Virus record (IMG/VR): IMGVR_UViG_3300037485_000646
Span: 1-21,736 of that record
From: a virus
Strand: one strand, 5' to 3'
DNA: 21,736 nt
How positions within the stretch are numbered: the stretch's first letter is position 1; every line of letters begins with the position of its first letter. Positions 2,032 to 17,295 of the stretch are shown one piece after another. Made by a program: the position numbers and the translations under genes. The notes beneath the pieces were generated by a model. That model saw only the letters and a program-made list of their open reading frames with translations. It made no database searches and was not told where the DNA came from.

Positions 2032-2400
2032 ATGCACGACCCCGTAAACAACCCTCGCCACTATGCCAAGAATGGTGGCATCGAATGCATTGAAGCCATT
2101 GAAGCTTCAATGGACGTAGATGATTTCAGAGGATTCCTTAAAGGAAACATCATTAAATATATTTGGCGTTATGAAGACAAGAATGGCCTAGAGGATTTGA
2201 AGAAATGTCGCTGGTATCTTGATCTTCTTATTTTTTCCAAGGAAAATGAAGCGGAGCAGGAAGCTGTTGATGCTCTTGAAGGCTCTTCAGAACTTTGCAA
2301 GGATGGCTTCTGTCCCATGCCAGGCCAAATGCAGCCAGTTCCTGGGATTCGTTACGACTTACCAGGCAAGCAGATCACTTTCGCTCCAGTGGAAGGCTAA
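2032..2400 (+). CDS. DUF3310 family protein
   Basis: A 122-residue protein. The first 65 residues match the DUF3310 (SaV-like) pattern common in phages: VNNPRHYAKNGGIECIEAIE, then a hydrophobic-aromatic core (FLKGNIIKYIWRYEDKNG) and LEDLKKCRWYLDLLI. The C-terminal 50 residues are less conserved, with two Cys (CKDGFC) and a Pro/Gln-rich end. The biochemical function of DUF3310 is not established; it often sits with nucleotide metabolism genes, as here with thyX. It is the last gene of the left cassette: a terminator follows 13 bases after the stop, and its TAA (2398-2400) overlaps the opposite-strand TAG of the HNH gene (2397-2399). Confidence 0.85.
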   Translation: MHDPVNNPRHYAKNGGIECIEAIEASMDVDDFRGFLKGNIIKYIWRYEDKNGLEDLKKCRWYLDLLIFSKENEAEQEAVDALEGSSELCKDGFCPMPGQMQPVPGIRYDLPGKQITFAPVEG

Positions 2401-2951
2401 GCAGCATTGCAACAAAGGCCCCATACGGGGCCTTTTTCATGGGCAATACGTTGATGCACGGGAAGCACCAAGCCTTTCTTTTCGCACCATTCCTCAAGAT
2501 CCTTCTGGTCAGTGTGGGCACTGACAAAGCTATTGCAATACACCCAAGCCATTAGCTTTTCTTCCCGTTCCTCGGTCCAAAAATCTTGAGGCCGCCACCA
2601 TTCAAACACTGGCAGGTTCTGCTTAGAGATGTTACAGGATCGACATGCTGGAATGGTGTTCCATCGACTGAAATGAGGCCCTCCTTTGCTCTTGGGAACA
2701 ATGTGGTCAATGGTAAGCTTTTCGTTCCACGTGCCGCAATAAGCACATGCACACTGCCCAAAAGGTCCTCTCAGGAAATAGTCTTCAAAAATGCTCTTGC
2801 GAAATCTACGTTTTGCATCCCCAGGGCGAAGTTCAATGAGAGAATAAAGCAGCTCATCAGGACCATTCGCACTAAGCATGGCACTATTTAATTGTCTTGA
2901 GGACAATCTAACGCGAAACATTTGCTGATGAATTCCGTAGAATAATATCAT
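2397..2951 (-). CDS. HNH endonuclease, free-standing (probable homing type)
   Basis: A 184-residue protein from the ATG at 2951. The HNH/zinc-ribbon core is clear: CAYCG, then LTIDHIVPKSKGG, then RWNTIPACRSCNISK, giving the paired CxxC...CxxC metal site around the Asp-His active site. The rest is a basic N-terminal arm and an aromatic C-terminal helix. ATG 2951 is preferred because AAAGG lies three bases upstream and homology-like sequence starts near there. The longer frame to 3065 lies opposite the membrane-protein gene and lacks protein character; ATG 2921 is the other alternative. It probably cuts DNA as a selfish or homing enzyme. It is inserted against the direction of its flanking cassettes, starts 12 bases from the divergent gene at 2964, and uses the terminator region as coding sequence. 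Confidence 0.9.
   Translation of the reverse strand: MILFYGIHQQMFRVRLSSRQLNSAMLSANGPDELLYSLIELRPGDAKRRFRKSIFEDYFLRGPFGQCACAYCGTWNEKLTIDHIVPKSKGGPHFSRWNTIPACRSCNISKQNLPVFEWWRPQDFWTEEREEKLMAWVYCNSFVSAHTDQKDLEEWCEKKGLVLPVHQRIAHEKGPVWGLCCNAA
2414..2437 (+). terminator. Rho-independent terminator after DUF3310 gene
   Basis: A nine-base-pair stem AAAGGCCCC / GGGGCCTTT with the loop ATAC, followed by a T run (2433-2437). It ends the plus-strand cassette 1-2400. It lies inside the 3' coding end of the convergent HNH gene, so it should not stop that gene's transcript efficiently unless a poly-U equivalent exists on the other side; the reverse strand has TTTG there. Confidence 0.9.
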
Positions 2952-2963
2952 TGACCTTTGGCT

Positions 2964-3173
2964 ATGGACAGTTTCAAGGACGGTCTGGCTAACTTTGTGG
3001 CGACTATAACCGCCGGAATGTTGCTGTCCACAGGGGCAATGCTTATTGCTGTGGGCACTCAGCAAGCAAGAGTGGCCGTACAGATTGAAAGTGTTACAGA
3101 AAAGCTCAGTGCGCTCACTGATAAAATGAGCGATCTTGAAACAAGAGTGCGCAGTTTAGAGATTGAACGCTAG
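2964..3173 (+). CDS. Small membrane protein with C-terminal coiled coil, holin-like
   Basis: A 69-residue protein from ATG 2964 (a TTG at 2958 would add two residues). One hydrophobic segment (FVATITAGMLLSTGAMLIAVG) is followed by a soluble helix with heptads (ESVTEKLSALTDKMSDLETR). This fits a single-pass inner-membrane protein. Together with the next small membrane protein and the endolysin, it suggests a holin, antiholin or spanin-like role in lysis; I cannot tell which. No Shine-Dalgarno sequence is visible. It begins a new plus-strand unit after the HNH insertion, and its promoter must lie in or near the HNH 5' end. Confidence 0.65.
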   Translation: MDSFKDGLANFVATITAGMLLSTGAMLIAVGTQQARVAVQIESVTEKLSALTDKMSDLETRVRSLEIER

Positions 3174-3351: not shown

Positions 3352-4296
3352 ATGTGGCCCTCTGATCGGGCATTCTGGGATGAATGCTTCCAGCTTGCCC
3401 GGCATTACGGCGCTCGCTACCCCGAGCTTGCTGCAGCACAATGCTGTCTTGAAAGTGGCTTTGGTAAGCACACATCTGGCAAGAACAACTTTCTGGGCCT
3501 TAAAGGAGAAGGTACGTCTACTGCCACGCAAGAATGGTACGACGGTCAGTGGGTGATTATTAAGGCGGGCTTCATTGATTTCCCTAGCCTTGCCGCCTGC
3601 ATTGAATATTTAATCACGCGATGGTATAAAGACTATCGCCATTTCAAGGGAGTTAATCACGCGCCTAATCGTTACGCAGCAGCACGCATGCTTCGTGAAC
3701 AAAGCTATGCCACGGATCCCGATTATCCAGCAAAGCTGTCTAGGCTCATGAAGGAATACGCTCCAGAATCAACAAAAACTACCATGATTGGTCCCAAGAA
3801 ACGTCCTCAAGACTTTGGCTTCAAGAAAGGAGACTCCCATCTCATCGTTAACGATGCGAATGAGACAATGAAAGCATTCTCGTTTGAAGGCGAGCTGCTT
3901 TGGACCATTCCTTGCCTTGCTCGTGGGCAATATAGTGATTTTGAATGGAAGATTACAAATTCAGACACTCCTGTGGGGGTCTATAAGATTGGTGCCATCT
4001 ATAAAGACTATGAGAGAGTGGGTGACAAGCCTGCATATGATCGCACTCTTATGGCTTATGGCTGGTACAGCTTTGATATGGTGGAGCTTGAAAATCAAGA
4101 AGCTGGCAATGGTCGAGCTGGAATTATGACGCATGGTGGTGGCAGCGCTAATGGCTGGCCAGGTGCATGGGCTCCTAAGCAGCCTCTTGTCCCCACTCAT
4201 GGCTGCGTTCGTTGCCACAACATTGATCTTCGTGATAAGATTCTGCCCTTAACGAAACAAGGCACCATCTTTATTAGCGTCTATCAAGAAGGCTGA
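3352..4296 (+). CDS. Endolysin: GH73 glucosaminidase plus L,D-transpeptidase (YkuD) domain
   Basis: A 314-residue protein predicted to open peptidoglycan at lysis. Residues 1-138 form a GH73 (FlgJ-like) glucosaminidase: AAAQCCLESGFGKH with likely catalytic E34, then NNFLGLKGEG and the C-terminal part VNHAPNRYAAARMLRE. Residues about 158-310 show a YkuD L,D-transpeptidase fold: H261 in MTHGGG, and THGCVRCHNID with H283, C285 (nucleophile) and R287. Both catalytic sets look intact. There is no signal peptide, so export would need the holin. AAGG upstream supports ATG 3352. YkuD domains normally cross-link peptidoglycan or attach lipoprotein; in a lysis protein it may instead act on peptide stems or bind them. 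That role is inference. Confidence 0.88.
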   Translation: MWPSDRAFWDECFQLARHYGARYPELAAAQCCLESGFGKHTSGKNNFLGLKGEGTSTATQEWYDGQWVIIKAGFIDFPSLAACIEYLITRWYKDYRHFKGVNHAPNRYAAARMLREQSYATDPDYPAKLSRLMKEYAPESTKTTMIGPKKRPQDFGFKKGDSHLIVNDANETMKAFSFEGELLWTIPCLARGQYSDFEWKITNSDTPVGVYKIGAIYKDYERVGDKPAYDRTLMAYGWYSFDMVELENQEAGNGRAGIMTHGGGSANGWPGAWAPKQPLVPTHGCVRCHNIDLRDKILPLTKQGTIFISVYQEG

Positions 4297-4320: not shown

Positions 4321-4725
4321 ATGAGCAAGCAATCTTGGTTTAATGCTCTTTGTTATGAGCTTGGCTTATGGGCTGCTACCAAGCAGCCCTCTCTTGCATT
4401 GAAGCCATGGTTCAAAATGCTCATGGCATATTGTCGTCCAGACTGGACAGAATGGAAAACAAAAATTGTCATGGAGAAAATTGACGAGCAGGCAGCTACG
4501 CTCGTCAAGCAATGGGGCCAGGAAGAGCGAGAATCAAAAGCAAACGCATTGGCCCAAGAAGCTCATAAGCTTTTTCCTGATGCCACCATTACGCCATTGC
4601 CTGACGCCATTGTCCCATCGGTGCTCATTGAAAAAGCCCCGCCAGCGAATGCCAGCGAGGCCGTGAAAGCCCTTGGTGGGGAATTGAGGATTACATACCA
4701 GCTCCCAGGCCCAGAAGCGCCCTAA
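4321..4725 (+). CDS. Hypothetical protein downstream of endolysin
   Basis: A 134-residue protein from ATG 4321. Its N-terminal half is Trp-rich (SWFNALCYELGLWAATK, then CRPDWTEWK), followed by a helix (EERESKANALAQEAHKLF) and a Pro-rich C-terminal tail. No domain recognised; no signal peptide or membrane span. It follows the endolysin by 24 bases on the same strand, so it is likely in the lysis transcript, possibly as a regulator or structural accessory. No ribosome-binding site is visible. Its stop lies in a GC-rich hairpin (4714-4733), and its last 35 bases overlap the opposite-strand gene 4691-4909. Confidence 0.6.
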   Translation: MSKQSWFNALCYELGLWAATKQPSLALKPWFKMLMAYCRPDWTEWKTKIVMEKIDEQAATLVKQWGQEERESKANALAQEAHKLFPDATITPLPDAIVPSVLIEKAPPANASEAVKALGGELRITYQLPGPEAP

Positions 4726-4934: not shown

Positions 4935-5771
4935 TTATGCCCATGGTCCGACTGATACGTTACTCCCGGACGTTCCAATGGGCCAAATACTAATGAAAGA
5001 TCCAGTAAGAGTGCTATATGCGCCGCCTGGAGCAGCAGATAGTTTGTATTGAGGGTTGAATGTGCCTGCCGCATTGACACTAAATGTGCCATAAAACGTG
5101 CCTGTTTGCGTGCGGACGGCTCCTGCAATACTGGTTATATAGTTAATTAAAGCAGTTGTTGTATGTATGCCATAGTTCCAAGCGCTTGTTGCCAAAGAAC
5201 TTGTACTAGGCGGCGCAGCTTGAATGTTTTGATACGTGCCGTGTATGTGTATGTTGTTAAATGTGGCTGTGCCGCCATCAAAGCTAAACCCTATGGAATG
5301 AGAAGAGGCTCCTGCAGTTTTTGCTAAAGTGAATGTCATTTGCATGGCATAAATCGTATTCGCCTGCAAAGACACTCCGACGCCAAATAAACTTTGCGAC
5401 ACTGTGCTGTTCGCTCCAGCCAAGTCAGCATTAAGGCGATAAACCATCGCGGAAGGGGATATTCCTCGCGCTGCTGGCGTACTGTAAAAAACTTTGCCAT
5501 CATATTCCATCACTCCAGAAGCAGCAGTTGTTAGGCTAGTGCCCGCTTGGAACAACAATGGAGCAAGCGATGTGGTCCCAGATGCAACCACTAATCCGCT
5601 GGTTAAAGTGCCGCCAGTAAAGGGCGCCCCGATAGCGACCATCGTTCCCGCGGAGTCTTTCACATAGAGTGCTCCCCCATCCTTATTCCATGCAGGTTCA
5701 CCAATGTCAAAATCCGCCCCATTCGGCACTGTTGTGCCATTGCGAAGAATGATTTTATTTTGACGAGGCAT
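4935..5771 (-). CDS. Tail fibre-like or virion surface protein
   Basis: A 278-residue protein. The N-terminus (KIILRNGTTVPNGADF, then GEPAWNKDGGALYVKD) is the particle-attachment motif seen in many phage fibre proteins, in which a Gly-Glu-Ala/Pro-Trp turn precedes an LYVKD strand. The rest is a low-charge Ser/Thr/Gly/Ala beta-rich region, ending in a compact possible receptor-binding part with aromatic residues (about 175-278). It starts directly at the TAA of the previous gene; its ribosome-binding site GGAGG, ten bases upstream, is encoded by the last Gly codons of that gene. Host-range or surface decoration role is inferred. Confidence 0.75.
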   Translation of the reverse strand: MPRQNKIILRNGTTVPNGADFDIGEPAWNKDGGALYVKDSAGTMVAIGAPFTGGTLTSGLVVASGTTSLAPLLFQAGTSLTTAASGVMEYDGKVFYSTPAARGISPSAMVYRLNADLAGANSTVSQSLFGVGVSLQANTIYAMQMTFTLAKTAGASSHSIGFSFDGGTATFNNIHIHGTYQNIQAAPPSTSSLATSAWNYGIHTTTALINYITSIAGAVRTQTGTFYGTFSVNAAGTFNPQYKLSAAPGGAYSTLTGSFISIWPIGTSGSNVSVGPWA

Positions 5772-10283: not shown

Positions 10284-12581
10284 TCAATTAATACCAGCGT
10301 CGTTCAGGCGCTGTTCAAGAACCTCAATCCGCTCCATCGCTTCCTGCAAAGCTTTCGCTGCTTTCATAAGTAGGATTGATTGCTTCACAGACTTAACTCC
10401 ATCTTCGCTGTCTACTACAAGTCCAGGGGAAGTTTGCTCTAGTTCTTGTGCAATAACGCCGAGGTGGTGTGAAGCATTTTCGTTGTTAATGACTTCATCT
10501 TTGAGCCGATACTTTCTGAAACGTACAGCTTTGATGTCATCCCACTGCGAAGACGCATCTTCAATTTCTTGCTTAAGATTTACATCAGAAAGAGTGCCCC
10601 AGGTGCCCGTGGTGTTGTAAGCCTGTCCAGCACTTGTGAACTGAACTCGCGTTGTAGTTGGCCCTCCAGTATTAGTAGTGCTGCACCTAAAGCACAAGTC
10701 ACCAAGTGCATCTGTTTCTGTTTGCAAGCGCCAGTTTCGCCTGTTAGCAGAGTCAGTGGCATTGATGCACAGCGACAAGCGTTGGCCAACATTTACATCA
10801 ACAGCCTCAAGAGAGCTTTCGACAGTTGTTGTCAGGAGTATTCTTCCGCCATTTGTAATCCTCATCCGCTCCGTCGGAGAACTCGCCCCGTCCGCCGTGG
10901 TGGAGAACACTAGGCGAGTTGGATGACTAGTACCAGCGCTCCATGTTCCATCCCCTTCAGCGAGAATACGGGCACCAACATTATTAGAAGAGTTGGTAAA
11001 GTCAACAAAACCAATGGTGCTGCCAGCAGATGCTGTGGTTGCATTCCGCTGGATGTTTACTGCGCCGCCAAATCCAGTAGATCCACCTTGAACAACAAAC
11101 TTAGCTTCGGCAGAGCTAGAAGACGTACCAACTAAGAGCCTGCCGCTGGAGTCGATGCGGGCCACTTCGCTGGCGCTGATATTGGCAATAAAGGGCGCAG
11201 TGGATGCAGCAGAAGTTAACGTTGTAGTACCTGCGCTGCTGATACGAACTCGTTCACTAACGCTGCCACCGCTGCCCGTACCAACAACGAGAGCGCCACT
11301 CCCGCTGTTAAACATGTCGGTACTGATGTACGCATGAACACCAGGGCTATCCGTATCGGACGTGTACCACTCAATTGTCCCGGTGGGTTGATCGTTGGTT
11401 TGTGTGGTGTCTGTGTCAGTAAAGCGAAGACGGTTTGTTGCGTTAAGCGGAGACGTTAAGCCTGTATTGTTTCCAGCAAGATCCAATAACGCCCCAGGCG
11501 AAATAGTCCCTATGCCTACGCGCCCATTGCTCTGGATCCTCATCCGCTCCGTCGGTGAACTCGCCCCATCCTCTGTAGTGGAGAACACTAGGCGGCCTGC
11601 ATAGCTTCCAGCACTCCAGGCAGCATCTGTTTGCGCGTAAATCTGCGCTCCAACCGAGCCGGCGGAATCTTGAAATTGAGCAAAACCAAGGCTTAAATTA
11701 ATTCCAGGATTTGTTACACCCCTGGCTAAATTGATAATTGCGTGGGAGGTGCTGCCACCAGAGTTACCCTGAAAAACAGCGGTTGCCGCTGTAGACGCAC
11801 TAGACGTACCAACTAGCAAGCGTCCCGAGCTATCCACGAACAACCTGCCAAACCCACCAGTGCTGATGGCTAATTGGCCTGCGCCGGGTGAGTAGATGCC
11901 AGTGTTGGTGTCGCCGGTAAATGTAATACTGGGAGCTGCAGCAGCGCCAAGAGCGGCACTAACAATCCCAGTGGTTGTAATTGTCTGACTGCCAAAATCA
12001 GGACTAATTTTAGTGCCTGCAATAGCAGCACTGGCATTTACGTCAGCATTAAGAATAGTGCCATCCAGCAGCATGGTGCTAGTAACAGTGCCAGTATCGC
12101 CAGTCGTAATAACAGTGCCAGTAACGTTTGGCAGAGTAATAGTGCGATCTACTGTAGGATTAACGACGGTTAATGTCGTCTCAAAGCCATCGTCTGTACT
12201 GCCTTCAAAAATCAAGCTGGCAGATGGTCCCATTGTTAGCGAACCAGTCATGGTATCGCCAGTGCTGTTTACAAACTCCCCAGCTTCACTGCGCCATGAT
12301 CCACCGTCCCAAATCTTGAATACGTATGTACCACCACTTGTATCAAGCCATTGCTCGCCAAGACTATTCCCTGCCGTGCCGCCACTAGCAGGACTCACAT
12401 TAGGAGCCGTGCTACCAACATGCACGGGCCCCACTTTCACTAAACTACCGTTGCTGTCCTTGAAGAACATGCCAGGGCTGCCACTTGCATAGTTAATGGC
12501 CACTTGACCATCAACCATAGAAGCAGGATTAGGACGCTTATTAAGCGTCGATGAACGCAGGTGTTGAAGAACGCCAGCCAT
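10284..12581 (-). CDS. Tail fibre/spike with C-terminal S74 chaperone domain
   Basis: A 765-residue fibre. The N-terminus has the particle-docking pattern (NKRPNPASMVDGQVAIN, then GMFFKD). Then come a Trp module (EQWLDTSGGTYVFKIWDG), a segment shared with the end of the preceding fibre (LIFEGSTDDGFET, TLPNVTGTVITTGDTGTVTS), and two copies of a module with DSSGRLLVGTSS and DGASSPTERMRI. The end is a peptidase S74 intramolecular chaperone: TWGTLSDVNLKQEI with S665-D666 at the likely self-cleavage site, GVIAQELEQTSPGLVV, then a coiled coil (665-765). Such domains trimerise the fibre and then cut themselves off. Its ribosome-binding site (AAAGG, nine bases before the ATG) lies in an inverted repeat. 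Confidence 0.92.
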   Translation of the reverse strand: MAGVLQHLRSSTLNKRPNPASMVDGQVAINYASGSPGMFFKDSNGSLVKVGPVHVGSTAPNVSPASGGTAGNSLGEQWLDTSGGTYVFKIWDGGSWRSEAGEFVNSTGDTMTGSLTMGPSASLIFEGSTDDGFETTLTVVNPTVDRTITLPNVTGTVITTGDTGTVTSTMLLDGTILNADVNASAAIAGTKISPDFGSQTITTTGIVSAALGAAAAPSITFTGDTNTGIYSPGAGQLAISTGGFGRLFVDSSGRLLVGTSSASTAATAVFQGNSGGSTSHAIINLARGVTNPGINLSLGFAQFQDSAGSVGAQIYAQTDAAWSAGSYAGRLVFSTTEDGASSPTERMRIQSNGRVGIGTISPGALLDLAGNNTGLTSPLNATNRLRFTDTDTTQTNDQPTGTIEWYTSDTDSPGVHAYISTDMFNSGSGALVVGTGSGGSVSERVRISSAGTTTLTSAASTAPFIANISASEVARIDSSGRLLVGTSSSSAEAKFVVQGGSTGFGGAVNIQRNATTASAGSTIGFVDFTNSSNNVGARILAEGDGTWSAGTSHPTRLVFSTTADGASSPTERMRITNGGRILLTTTVESSLEAVDVNVGQRLSLCINATDSANRRNWRLQTETDALGDLCFRCSTTNTGGPTTTRVQFTSAGQAYNTTGTWGTLSDVNLKQEIEDASSQWDDIKAVRFRKYRLKDEVINNENASHHLGVIAQELEQTSPGLVVDSEDGVKSVKQSILLMKAAKALQEAMERIEVLEQRLNDAGIN
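10858..10916 (-). repeat. Copy 2 of a 59-base internal duplication in the S74 fibre gene
   Basis: It matches 11536-11594 at 54 of 59 bases, 678 bases (226 codons) apart and in frame. It encodes residues about 556-575 with the core STTADGASSPTERMRI. Only one of the five differences visibly changes the protein (Ala versus Glu). Confidence 0.9.
11536..11594 (-). repeat. Copy 1 of a 59-base internal duplication in the S74 fibre gene
   Basis: Partner of 10858-10916; it encodes residues about 330-349 with the core STTEDGASSPTERMRI. Both copies look more GC-rich than flanking fibre sequence. Confidence 0.9.
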
Positions 12582-12654: not shown

Positions 12655-15600
12655 TTAGAACGTACCCTCATCCATGGTGGCATCAATCGTACCAGCGGAG
12701 AAATTACCACTACTATCGCGAGCAATAATCGCATTGGCAGTGTTGGCGCTAGTGGCCGTGGTGGCACTATTGCTTACTTTTCCAGCAGTGGAAATAGTGC
12801 TGAGCTTTGTATCAGCAATACTGCCAGCAAGCATTAAATTAGTAACAGTACCAGAGTCGCCAGTAGTGATGAGGGTGCCAGTAGTGTCTGGCAGCGTCAC
12901 CACCTTGTCTGAAGTGGCATCAGCCGCTGCAAGTTGAATTTCAAAAGTGTTATCAGTGGCACCTTCAAAAAGCAATGTTCCCGCATTGCCAATTACCACT
13001 TCACCAGTGATAGTGCCGCCTGCTTTTGGCAATGCTGCATTGGCTAGGTCATAAGCGCTCTTCACTGCAGTGGCAGTAGCAGCAAGCGTTGAGCTAGTAG
13101 TTGCAACGGAATCAGTGAGTTGAACACTTCCCCTAACGCTTGTCGTGGCATCGGGAATTGAAATAATAGGCGTAGTAGATCCGCTGACGACAGTAATCGG
13201 AGAATTGGCGCTCACCGAGAGTACCGTGCCACTAGCAGGTGTGGCCCATTTCACGCCAGTGCCAAAAGCTGAATCAGCAGTTAGTACCTGCCCGTTGGTT
13301 CCCACCGCCTGCTTTAGAAGTGTTGTACCACTGCTGACAAGAAGGTCTCCTTTGGTGTAGGCATTAAAACCAGTGCCGCCATATCCAGTGGCAAGAATAC
13401 CACTCGCTACATTGTTTACATTGCGACATTCATTGCTCACTTCTTCAATGGCCGACTGCACATTGCTGCTTGCAATGCTCGCTGCTGGAGTGAATGCAAC
13501 GTTCACTGCAGCCTGGCTCGTGTAAGTGGAGCTAACGTCCACTTCCACCCATGCCGTGCCATTACAAAGCAGAATGTCTGGCGGCTGCAGAATTGTTTCA
13601 GGAGCTGGAGATGCGCCTGTGCCTCCACTTGCAACTACCACGTAATAACGATTAAACGTGACTGATGGCGAAGGAAGTGGCTGTCCAACACTTAGGCCAA
13701 TTGCTGCGCCATCAGCACTCGTGCTCGCGATGGTATTACCGCTTGCATTGTATGTGCCACCAAAAATAATCTCCCCCACTGAAATTCCAACTGGGTTCCA
13801 AACATTGCCATCCCAGAGGAAAAGATCTTTTTCCAGGGGATTAAAGAAAAATTGCCCGATGAAGTCGGCAACTGGCGGAGCTTCACCAAATTGGCTGACA
13901 GAATAATTGGCAAGCTTTGATGCCAAAATGGAATCATCTGCAATAAAGCCACTGCCAAAGGATCCAGTGGTAATTTTGCTTGCCGAAAGCGAAGGAATGT
14001 CATCCGCGACAAGACTTGCATTGCCAGCAGTGACGTGCCCTTCCGGGTCCACGGACACCCTGTAATACACACCTGAGGCGATGCTATTGGTATGGTTAAA
14101 AATGCCACTAACGGTGACCAATCCTGTTCCAGCTTGCGCTACGCCCAAAGCTGAAGTGGTTGCCTTGGGAAGATCATCAGTGCTGATTGTGCGGAATGTC
14201 GGGGCTGCGTCTGCACTTCCACTGGCGGGGCCAGCAAAAAAGCGCGATGCCACTTGAGTGTTTAAAGAGGGAACGATGGATGCACTAAATTCATCTGGAT
14301 AAGAAGAAGTAAAGCCATAAATGGCGTCACCAGAGACGACAATAGTTGAAAGACTAGCTTGACGCTGCCAAGAACTTCCATTCCATGTGTATTCATAGCC
14401 AGTGCTTGTATTAATCCATTGTTGGCCAATAAAATCTCCACTTCCAACTGGCGTAGATCCAGCAACCACAGCAGCGGAATTATCTGCCATCTTTGCGCCA
14501 GTAATAGCTCCATCGCTAAGCTTGGCAGTAATCACGGCCAAGTCATTAATTTTTACGGAAGTAATGGCAGAATTGGCAATCGTAGCAGCAAATGCACCAG
14601 TGCCAGTACCAGTGACATCTCCCGAGAGTGTGATAGTCTGATCGCCAGTGTTAATACCAGTGGAAGTACCAGAGAAACTTCCATCTTGCACTGCCAATGT
14701 CCCAAGGCCAAGCGTAGTGCGAATGTCTGCAACAGTGGCATCATCAAGAATGGAACGCGCTGCTGATGTGCAGACAATTTCCTCTATGGTTCCTCCACTA
14801 GCAGAGAATCTGCCAAGGATGACATCGCTTGCACTAGTGGCTTGAATTTTGCCGTAAGAAACTGCTGCATCGGCAATCTTGGCAGTAGTAATGCCGCTAT
14901 CAATAATCTTGGCGGTAATAACTGCATTACTCGCAAGCTTATCCGCCGTGATATTTGCATCAACAATTTTGACAGTGGTAATGCCACTGTCAGCAAGTTT
15001 CACAGTGGTAATTGCATTGTCAGCAATATCTGCAGTGACGATGGAAGAGGAATCGTAATCTCCACTTCCTACTGTATTTTTTACGGCTAGCGAACCAAGG
15101 CCAAGCGTAGTACGTTGAGCGCTGGCATCTGCGTCGTCAAGAATGGCACGACCGGCAGCCGTGATTGTGGCTGCAGCGTAAGTGTCAGAAGCAATGGCAT
15201 AGATAAATTCACCAGACGCAACGGTGATGCCAGCAATTGAAGCCAGTGCAGCATCGTAAGCCTGCACGTCGGTGCCAATAATCAGACCGAGATTTGTCCT
15301 GGCTCCAGAGGCTGTAGATGAGCCTGTACCACCGTCTTCAATGGCAAGGTCAGTAATGCCACTGATTGCGCCACCATTGATGGTTGCATAGGAAATAGTG
15401 CCACTACTGAGCACTGCCGTACCACCAGTAATTGCCACGCCAGAAGCAGCTTGTACTGCCATGGAATCCAGGCCAAGCGTAGTGCGTTGAGCAGATGCGT
15501 CAGCATCGTCCAACAGGGCCCTGCCTGCCTCAGTGAGCGTGATGCTCTCTATGCTGCCACTACCGGCAGAAGCCCTACCAAGCAGCACTCCACTAGCCAC

Positions 15601-17295
15601 TTGCTGGATCTTGGTAAAAGTGACGGCATTATCTTCAATGGCGACAGTAGAAATAGATCCACTTGCGTAACTTCCAGAAGGAATGGAACTAGCGGTAATG
15701 ACAGATCCAGGAAGCTCCCCAGAAGAAAGACCAAGCTTTCCGATGGTGACGGCTCCAGAGGCAAGCTTTGCAGTTGTAACGCCACTGTCAACGATTTGTG
15801 CAGTGCCAATACTACCGCTTGCCATCTTGGCAAGAGTTACAGTCGAATCAACAATGTTGATCGTGGTGATACATCCGCTTGCAAGCTTGGCTTGAGTGAT
15901 GCCACTATCAATAATGTTGGCAGTAGCAATAGAGCCTGCAGCAAGCTTTGCTTGGGTGATGCCGCTGTCTACTAAATTGATAGTAGACACTGAATTGGCA
16001 GCAAGCTTCTCTTGCGTAATGCCACTGGCCAAGACATTGACAGTTGCCACCGCATTCGCAGCAAGCTTCACTTGCGTGATGCCACTATCTACTAAATTGA
16101 CAGTATTGATTGCATTAGCAGCAAGCTTTTCTTGCGTGATGCCACTGTTAACAATTTGAACAGTGCCGATACTATCGCTTGCCATTTTGGCTAGCGTTAC
16201 AGAAGCATCAATAATGTTGACAGTTGAAATGGCACCACTAGCCAGCTTGGCTTGCGTGATACCACTATCAACGAGCTGAATAGTGCCAATGCTATTAGTA
16301 GCCATCTTGGCTAGCGTCACAGCGGAATCAACAATGTTGATCGTATCCACTGCTCCACTTGCAAGTTTGACCTGCGTAATGCCGCTATCAACAAATTGAG
16401 CAGTGCTAACACTGCCACTGGCCATTTTTACCAGCGTGACGGAGGCATCAATAAGATTAACCGTATCAACAGCGCCACTAGCAAGCTTGGGCTGCGTCAC
16501 TCCACTGTCGATGATGTTGATTGTCGCGATACTTCCAGAGGCAAGCTTCACTTGCGTGATACCACTGTCAACAATATTTACCGTCGCAATGGCATTCGCA
16601 GCAAGCTTAACTTGCGTCACTCCACTGTCTACCAGTTGAATGGTTCCAATAGAATTGGCAGCCATCTTCGCTAGTGTTACGCCACTAGCAGCAAGATGAA
16701 CAGTGTTAATAGCTTCAGCGCTTACATTGGCGCCAGTGATGCCACTAGTTTGAATCTTGACGGAAGTTACGGCACCATCAATAATCTTAATTGTTTCTAC
16801 AGAATCACTAGCAAGTTTGCCAGCCGTAACGGCAAGATCATCGATCTTATCAGTGGTAACGCTTAGATCTTCAAGGAGACTTGTGTTAATGGTATTGCCA
16901 GTGGCGACAATTCCAAGCTCTAAAGTAGAACGAGCTGCAGTGGAATTAGCGTCGTCAAGCAGCGTGCGAATGTAAACAGTGCAATCAATTTCCTCGACGT
17001 TGCCAGCAGAGGTGGTACGACCAAGGAGCTTGTTTGCATTTACTTGCTGGATCTTGTCATAGGTGAGCGTATTTGTGTCAATGGAAGTGCCAGTAAGTTT
17101 GGTCGCGCTTCCTTGATTAATCTTTGAAATGTCAAGCGTTGAAGCATCCGCAAGATTAAAACCAGCCTGAACTAGGCTCTTAACTTGCACCTTCTTTGTC
17201 TGACTAGCGCTAATATCCGCAATAGGCAGTACGTCGTTTGAAGCTACGCCTCCCTGAGGGAGTTCAACGAGTTCCGTAATTCTTTGATCGGCCAT
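12655..17295 (-). CDS. Giant repeat tail fibre protein
   Basis: A 1546-residue fibre. The N-terminus has the pattern RITELVELPQ...DVLPIADIS...TKKVQVKSL, common in phage fibres. Residues 193-512 are sixteen 20-residue repeats; residues 750-819 are seven related decapeptides (such as SGITTVKIVD). Four LLDDAD/STLGL-type motifs separate the modules (near 107, 585, 710 and 845). Then come Trp modules (WINTSTGYEYTWNGSSWQ; FFFNPLEKDLFLWDGNVW), a GGTG module (YGGTGFNAYTKGDLLVSS), and an end module shared with the next gene, closing with ATMDEGTF. It is likely a long, trimeric, beta-structured adsorption fibre. The gene follows a 16-base palindrome, and its start has only a weak GAGAG. It is a rapidly rearranging gene by appearance. 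Confidence 0.9.
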   Translation of the reverse strand: MADQRITELVELPQGGVASNDVLPIADISASQTKKVQVKSLVQAGFNLADASTLDISKINQGSATKLTGTSIDTNTLTYDKIQQVNANKLLGRTTSAGNVEEIDCTVYIRTLLDDANSTAARSTLELGIVATGNTINTSLLEDLSVTTDKIDDLAVTAGKLASDSVETIKIIDGAVTSVKIQTSGITGANVSAEAINTVHLAASGVTLAKMAANSIGTIQLVDSGVTQVKLAANAIATVNIVDSGITQVKLASGSIATINIIDSGVTQPKLASGAVDTVNLIDASVTLVKMASGSVSTAQFVDSGITQVKLASGAVDTINIVDSAVTLAKMATNSIGTIQLVDSGITQAKLASGAISTVNIIDASVTLAKMASDSIGTVQIVNSGITQEKLAANAINTVNLVDSGITQVKLAANAVATVNVLASGITQEKLAANSVSTINLVDSGITQAKLAAGSIATANIIDSGITQAKLASGCITTINIVDSTVTLAKMASGSIGTAQIVDSGVTTAKLASGAVTIGKLGLSSGELPGSVITASSIPSGSYASGSISTVAIEDNAVTFTKIQQVASGVLLGRASAGSGSIESITLTEAGRALLDDADASAQRTTLGLDSMAVQAASGVAITGGTAVLSSGTISYATINGGAISGITDLAIEDGGTGSSTASGARTNLGLIIGTDVQAYDAALASIAGITVASGEFIYAIASDTYAAATITAAGRAILDDADASAQRTTLGLGSLAVKNTVGSGDYDSSSIVTADIADNAITTVKLADSGITTVKIVDANITADKLASNAVITAKIIDSGITTAKIADAAVSYGKIQATSASDVILGRFSASGGTIEEIVCTSAARSILDDATVADIRTTLGLGTLAVQDGSFSGTSTGINTGDQTITLSGDVTGTGTGAFAATIANSAITSVKINDLAVITAKLSDGAITGAKMADNSAAVVAGSTPVGSGDFIGQQWINTSTGYEYTWNGSSWQRQASLSTIVVSGDAIYGFTSSYPDEFSASIVPSLNTQVASRFFAGPASGSADAAPTFRTISTDDLPKATTSALGVAQAGTGLVTVSGIFNHTNSIASGVYYRVSVDPEGHVTAGNASLVADDIPSLSASKITTGSFGSGFIADDSILASKLANYSVSQFGEAPPVADFIGQFFFNPLEKDLFLWDGNVWNPVGISVGEIIFGGTYNASGNTIASTSADGAAIGLSVGQPLPSPSVTFNRYYVVVASGGTGASPAPETILQPPDILLCNGTAWVEVDVSSTYTSQAAVNVAFTPAASIASSNVQSAIEEVSNECRNVNNVASGILATGYGGTGFNAYTKGDLLVSSGTTLLKQAVGTNGQVLTADSAFGTGVKWATPASGTVLSVSANSPITVVSGSTTPIISIPDATTSVRGSVQLTDSVATTSSTLAATATAVKSAYDLANAALPKAGGTITGEVVIGNAGTLLFEGATDNTFEIQLAAADATSDKVVTLPDTTGTLITTGDSGTVTNLMLAGSIADTKLSTISTAGKVSNSATTATSANTANAIIARDSSGNFSAGTIDATMDEGTF
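14839..15048 (-). repeat. Seven decapeptide repeats in the giant fibre
   Basis: Seven consecutive 30-base units encode ten-residue motifs of the type NAITTVKLAD, SGITTVKIVD, ANITADKLAS and NAVITAKIID. They correspond to half-units of the larger 20-residue array. Confidence 0.85.
15760..16719 (-). repeat. Sixteen 60-base (20-residue) repeats in the giant fibre
   Basis: The array has an exact 60-base period with no insertion or deletion, covering residues 193-512. A typical unit is ANAIATVNIVDSGITQVKLA. Each unit is two related decapeptides. Units fall into three types by the Asn/Gln position and the KLA/KMA ending (see findings). Confidence 0.95.

Follow-up and report, generated by a model that had tools for sequence, protein, structure and literature searches.

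L,D-transpeptidases are known chiefly for building and editing cell walls. The locus analyzed here raises the question of what such a fold does in a phage lysis protein. It lies in IMG/VR virus record IMGVR_UViG_3300037485_000646, of which the whole stretch of 21,736 nucleotides (positions 1 to 21,736) is referred to as the window. A first-pass annotation had described one of its open reading frames as an endolysin that combines a GH73 glucosaminidase with an L,D-transpeptidase (YkuD) fold, and had suggested that the YkuD half might cut, bind or lock peptide stems or exchange D-amino acids. Judging from the sequence, we propose that this endolysin, from a virus of picocyanobacteria, is a natural example of phage lysis drawing on an L,D-transpeptidase fold.

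The endolysin joins two intact catalytic folds

The ORF encodes a protein of 314 aa (Table 1). Pfam placed PF01832 (Glucosaminidase) on aa 14-136 (E = 6.9e-17; 62.7 bits against a gathering cut-off of 30.2) and PF03734 (YkuD) on aa 163-293 (E = 2.7e-6; 28.5 bits against a cut-off of 23.4), and the profile of PHROG 3513, which is named merely 'endolysin', covered aa 1-312 (E = 4.7e-58). When the PDB was searched by sequence with a profile built for the YkuD half (A1), no true relative emerged, so that only fold comparison was informative for this half. For this we used an AlphaFold2 model built on a 76-row alignment (A2; pLDDT 88) instead of the single-sequence model (pLDDT 33). The GH73 half of the model matched 3fi7, 5dn5 and 4qdn (Z 14-16). 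The YkuD half matched B. subtilis YkuD (1y7m; Z 13.1, rmsd 2.2 over 113 residues), Bd1075 (Z 13.0), Csd6 (12.4), LdtMt2 (~10.7), Tlde1a (10.5) and Pgp2, with all matches spanning Z 10-13. These six proteins share the fold of the C-terminal half, but they are cellular wall enzymes or secreted effectors, whereas the window's protein is a phage lysin. We dropped the choice between an LD-carboxypeptidase and an LD-transpeptidase from fold scores, since on this predicted model the LD-carboxypeptidases (Z 12-13) and B. subtilis YkuD were tied within 1.

Both folds were thus as the annotation had claimed, and E34, H261, H283, C285 and R287 were found exactly at the positions it had given. E34 is probably the equivalent of the catalytic Glu of FlgJ. 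The YkuD half contains THGCVR, with 20 residues between H261 and T282 compared to the X(14-17) of the canonical L,D-transpeptidase motif, for which we used H-X(14-17)-[S/T]HGC with an Arg two after the Cys. A chance or frameshift fusion of GH73 and YkuD was ruled out because the match was full length at every one of 80 loci.

Table 1 Features of the lysis cassette and of other parts of the window
Feature	Position	Strand	Basis or remark
HNH endonuclease	2397-2940	-	strand opposite to neighbors
Small ORF 1	2964..3173	+	one apparent N-terminal membrane helix and coiled coil
Small ORF 2, 47 aa	3204..3347	+	one hydrophobic stretch; homologue of S-CBS4 gp064
GH73-YkuD endolysin, 314 aa	3352..4296	+	one frame, ATG at 3352, stop at 4296; Pfam, PHROG, NCBIfam; AlphaFold2 model
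GH73 glucosaminidase domain, aa 14-136	3391..3759	+	PF01832; fold matches
Candidate catalytic Glu, E34	3451-3453	+	E34 in 81/81 aligned proteins
Inter-domain linker, aa 139-153	3766..3810	+	least constrained part
YkuD-fold domain, aa 154-314 (start approximate)	3811..4293	+	PF03734; fold matches
YkuD residue H261	4132-4134	+	
YkuD residue H283	4198-4200	+	
YkuD residue C285	4204-4206	+	
YkuD residue R287	4210-4212	+	
Conserved ORF	4321..4725	+	PHROG 6464 (unknown function); 3' of endolysin
Tail-fiber-like protein	10284-12581	-	C-terminal Peptidase_S74 self-cleaving chaperone domain, E=1.2e-9
Repetitive 1546-aa protein, probably a tail fiber	12655-17295	-	many 'SGITQxKLAxxxI' repeats

The endolysin lies in a conserved lysis cassette

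Two small membrane-protein-like ORFs directly precede the endolysin ORF, and both were retained 5' of it in 71 of 71 relatives with enough upstream sequence. The product of the first appears holin- or spanin-like, its only match being a weak one to the Rz-like PHROG 739 (E = 0.034). The second probably encodes a holin-like protein, and the last codon of its homologues usually lies 5-15 nt 5' of the endolysin start. The gene order around the endolysin (ThyX, DUF3310 protein, HNH nuclease on the other strand, two small ORFs, endolysin, PHROG 6464 ORF) is the same as in Synechococcus phage S-CBS4, where the last ORF is also kept 3' of the endolysin. The identification as an endolysin-like protein held up, with two intact catalytic folds in an ORF directly after two small membrane-protein-like ORFs. 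No signal peptide was visible, which together with the annotation of the relatives fits a holin-dependent endolysin. The HNH endonuclease gene lies just 5' of the cassette, and S-CBS4 and contig L198 have one as well.

The GH73-YkuD fusion is common in viral records

As a novel architecture the fusion was not supported by the database search. Relatives were encoded on 305 IMG/VR stretches, of which 80 were kept, all full length, and the fusion was present in at least 123 viral records including S-CBS4, as counted after the removal of 15 repeated contigs. Each of 15 long contigs (61-107 kb) encoded one GH73, and Pfam detected one YkuD in 11 of them. The PF03734 score of some relatives in which position 283 is M or Y lies under the cut-off; on L054, L081, L188 and L190, which have Met at this position, Pfam missed YkuD, yet the fusion is present. 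Among 50,697 phage records, only three phages (S-CBS4, B23 and S-CRM01) were found to have the endolysin's YkuD module, and tblastn recovered no Microcystis phage as a relative. S-CBS4 gp063 (YP_005098362) has the same length, both domains and the same cassette order, and is 85% identical over 314 aa. It is annotated 'endolysin'/'N-acetylmuramidase', and its YkuD half goes unmentioned. The fusion is thus already in a public isolate genome and not unique.

Nor is YkuD new as an endolysin domain. PhaLP counts it among the enzymatic domains of phage lytic proteins, with 10 occurrences, and the portion of that source considered here states no architecture, shuffling or mechanism for the class (PMC8310338). 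A second list of lytic-protein domains includes it too (PMC5017753), and one gut endolysin has a GH25-YkuD architecture (PMC13284279). For the late cyanophage gene product gp80 of cyanosiphophage Mic1, an 'L,D-transpeptidase', the authors suggest a possible role in host lysis, and the sections of their report used here mention no fused glycosidase (PMC11237433). In the literature searched we found no description of the GH73-YkuD fusion, of YkuD module shuffling or of a YkuD-only cassette. What is new is the pattern across the family, namely the module shuffling and the YkuD-only cassette.

The YkuD module occurs with other glycosidases and alone

We found the YkuD module with three glycosidase classes: GH73 (fused), GH19-like (fused or adjacent) and GH24 (adjacent or in a split frame). 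The GH19-like partner, seen in B23, L126-L128 and L202, falls under the PF00182 cut-off and matches the PHROG 181 endolysin (E = 7e-41). YkuD is fused N-terminally to it in B23 gp319 and five contigs, and in L202 the YkuD gene lies directly 3' of the GH19-like gene. Next to GH24, the YkuD gene is directly 5' with a 4-nt ORF overlap (e.g., L143, L156 and L165), while in S-CRM01 the YkuD module comes after a GH24 lysozyme, the end of which is encoded in the YkuD ORF, as though a frame change had divided a single gene. The modules of B23 gp319 and S-CRM01 g113/g112 are 70% and 59% identical to the window's, but their partners are GH19-like and GH24, respectively, not GH73; in both phages the ORFs with YkuD are annotated hypothetical. 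The division of the S-CRM01 GH24 domain over two ORFs, the second with YkuD (L003:4234-5543), could be a natural frameshift, a programmed frameshift or a sequencing error.

Other combinations were observed as well. On L107, a Cyanobium contig, YkuD is fused to a domain matching the PHROG 90 endolysin and adjoins a tail protein gene. Cyanophage PSS2 gp098 (L004:2992-4218), annotated hypothetical, joins a related GH73 to a C39-like cysteine peptidase in a parallel glycosidase-plus-peptidase design. Phages and hosts alike repeatedly combine YkuD, GH24 and GH19-like domains with a short N-terminal module of about 60 aa (RFxxFKxEPQQxxG; e.g., L110:3761-3940, L003:4234-4430 and L002 near 5595-5720).

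Three contigs (L196, L197 and L198) have naturally lost the GH73 half. Their cassette consists of the two small ORFs, YkuD alone (172 aa) and the homologue of the downstream PHROG 6464 ORF, and is otherwise intact. Since the contigs are 87-97% identical in DNA, the YkuD-only cassette is not one assembly error. Neither GH73 nor GH24 was found on them, and a Pfam family scan of the 19-kb contig of this set listed no other wall hydrolase, the accompanying PHROG scan covering the best 25 of 83 families; because these contigs are fragments, a second lysin elsewhere is possible. The presence of YkuD beside at least three unrelated sugar-cutting enzymes, and once without any, suggests that the module helps to break the wall rather than to build it. 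We are doubtful of a stronger version, in which the YkuD enzyme itself would be the phage lysis enzyme, the sole wall-attacker of some cassettes such as these three and elsewhere a portable partner of unrelated glycosidases.

Both halves are under equal purifying selection

Median dN/dS was 0.058 for GH73, 0.062 for YkuD and 0.155 for the linker, which places the two halves under equal purifying selection at about 0.06. Residue conservation was counted over 197 phage and host loci, with some contigs entered twice. C285, G284, R287 and N290 were invariant and H261 varied only in one 52-residue fragment, while 68 loci had L, M, Y, W or R in place of H283. The claim that the catalytic residues are kept is thus correct for the window's protein and, as regards H283, does not extend to the wider family. 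Two of four canonical host L,D-transpeptidases (LDTs) have HGC and two have NGC (TNGC in L212 and L214), indicating that position 283 is loose in picocyanobacteria generally. We toned down H283 loss as the mark of a hydrolase, given the TNGC of host secreted LDTs at the same position.

Picocyanobacterial genomes encode a separate, endolysin-like family

Close relatives (55-62%) were found at 35 loci among picocyanobacterial genome contigs. Such relatives occurred in 26 of 201 family genomes, compared to 2 of 292 genomes sampled across the phylum. The family is common to phage and host and, within the range tested, confined to picocyanobacteria and the phages that infect them. The host proteins are either GH24-YkuD fusions (13) or the short N-terminal module plus YkuD (19). 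They are distinct from the canonical LDTs that these genomes also encode and form a separate, endolysin-like host family, with several members near prophage-like genes. Recent capture of the phage module from a host housekeeping LDT was ruled out (best blastp E against host secreted LDTs, 0.03). In the YkuD tree most phage and host types lie apart, and its deep branches are weak, so that it gives no direction of phage-host transfer.

In 12 picocyanobacterial genomes, a chromosomal GH24-YkuD fusion gene adjoins a sulfate-permease-like (SulP) gene (L086, L087, L090-L092, L094-L097, L099, L118 and L119), and from the conservation of this synteny the gene would seem to be fixed and not part of a prophage. 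On L100, L105, L106 and L089, a distance of a few kb separates genes for the short N-terminal module plus YkuD from prophage-like genes, with a head-scaffolding-protein match on L105 (E = 3.8e-13); the setting might be a defective prophage, a tailocin or a gene-transfer-agent cluster that has been conserved.

The YkuD half may attack stem peptides

We consider it probable that the protein is a bicatalytic endolysin whose YkuD half attacks stem peptides at mDAP by its cysteine and thereby helps lysis. The small membrane proteins would permeabilize the inner membrane first, after which the GH73 half would cut the glycan at N-acetylglucosaminyl bonds. In the YkuD half, C285 would attack the mDAP(3)-X(4) bond, with H261 as the base and R287 placing the substrate. 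Residue 4 would then be released or exchanged, by L,D-carboxy- or endopeptidase activity or by D-amino-acid exchange, and crosslinks would be undone or prevented, resulting in net wall weakening. Of the roles offered by the annotation, cutting or D-amino-acid exchange would be the best, as favored by the module shuffling with at least three glycosidase classes and by the natural GH73 deletion; binding or locking is less likely given the near-invariant Cys, His and Arg.

Hydrolytic YkuD folds are known in Csd6, Pgp2 and DpaA (PMC10653827), and the T6SS effector Tlde1a is a toxic one (PMC9638812). Many L,D-transpeptidases have an Arg equivalent to R287, which the amidase DpaA lacks (PMC10653827), and this transpeptidase-type Arg keeps transpeptidase activity possible, against a hydrolytic reading. 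We also counted the relatives in host prophage-like and chromosomal loci against the favored reading. Given the secreted canonical LDTs of host genomes, a YkuD substrate probably exists; we found no account of the wall crosslink chemistry of picocyanobacterial hosts in the literature searched. LD-crosslinks inhibit phage lytic-transglycosylase endolysins, whereas tested phages with lysozyme- or endopeptidase-type endolysins are unaffected (PMC11390936), which makes the clearing of LD-crosslinks to free the glycosidase only one possible benefit. GH73 and GH24 enzymes may need no LD-crosslink removal.

Binding domains are present in many endolysins, and the YkuD half, no longer or not mainly catalytic, could likewise serve to bind the wall and position the glycosidase at stem peptides, perhaps through a stable thioester. 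The loss of H283 in 68 of the 197 loci and the odd motif spacing would agree with this. However, C285, H261 and R287 are essentially invariant, the dN/dS of the YkuD half is as low as that of the enzyme half, the module can also be encoded by its own gene next to a glycosidase or fill the endolysin slot by itself, and a non-His residue at the same position is found in host secreted LDTs too. We regard wall binding as distinctly unlikely. Also unlikely as the main activity is a swap of the terminal D-Ala for other D-amino acids, which would block further crosslinking as in Tlde1a. The likeness to this toxin is one of fold, seen in the predicted model. Its H129A mutant, altered in the HGC histidine, retains full D-amino-acid exchange, loses most crosslinking and partly keeps carboxypeptidase activity (PMC9638812), and H129 corresponds to the position lost in 68 relatives. 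Such an exchange is nevertheless expected to be slow relative to lysis, and the window's own protein retains H283.

It is very unlikely that the YkuD half builds or reinforces crosslinks, whether as a timer of lysis or as a barrier to superinfecting phages. R287 and the HGC are of the transpeptidase type, and the inhibition of lytic-transglycosylase endolysins by LD-crosslinks (PMC11390936) is in keeping with such a role, but within the lysis cassette the module is joined, by fusion or coupling, to a lytic glycosidase of the phage itself, lysozyme- and endopeptidase-type phages escape this inhibition (PMC11390936), and a YkuD-only endolysin slot would make little sense unless another lysin is encoded elsewhere. 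With bicatalytic attack on the wall as the favored reading, this phage-borne module, under strong selection and with at least three glycosidase partners and once none, provides a clean natural system for asking whether an L,D-transpeptidase fold can serve as a lysis weapon and which bond it attacks.

Outside the cassette, two minus-strand genes of the window attracted attention (Table 1): one for a tail-fiber-like protein with a self-cleaving chaperone domain and one for a highly repetitive protein that is probably a tail fiber.
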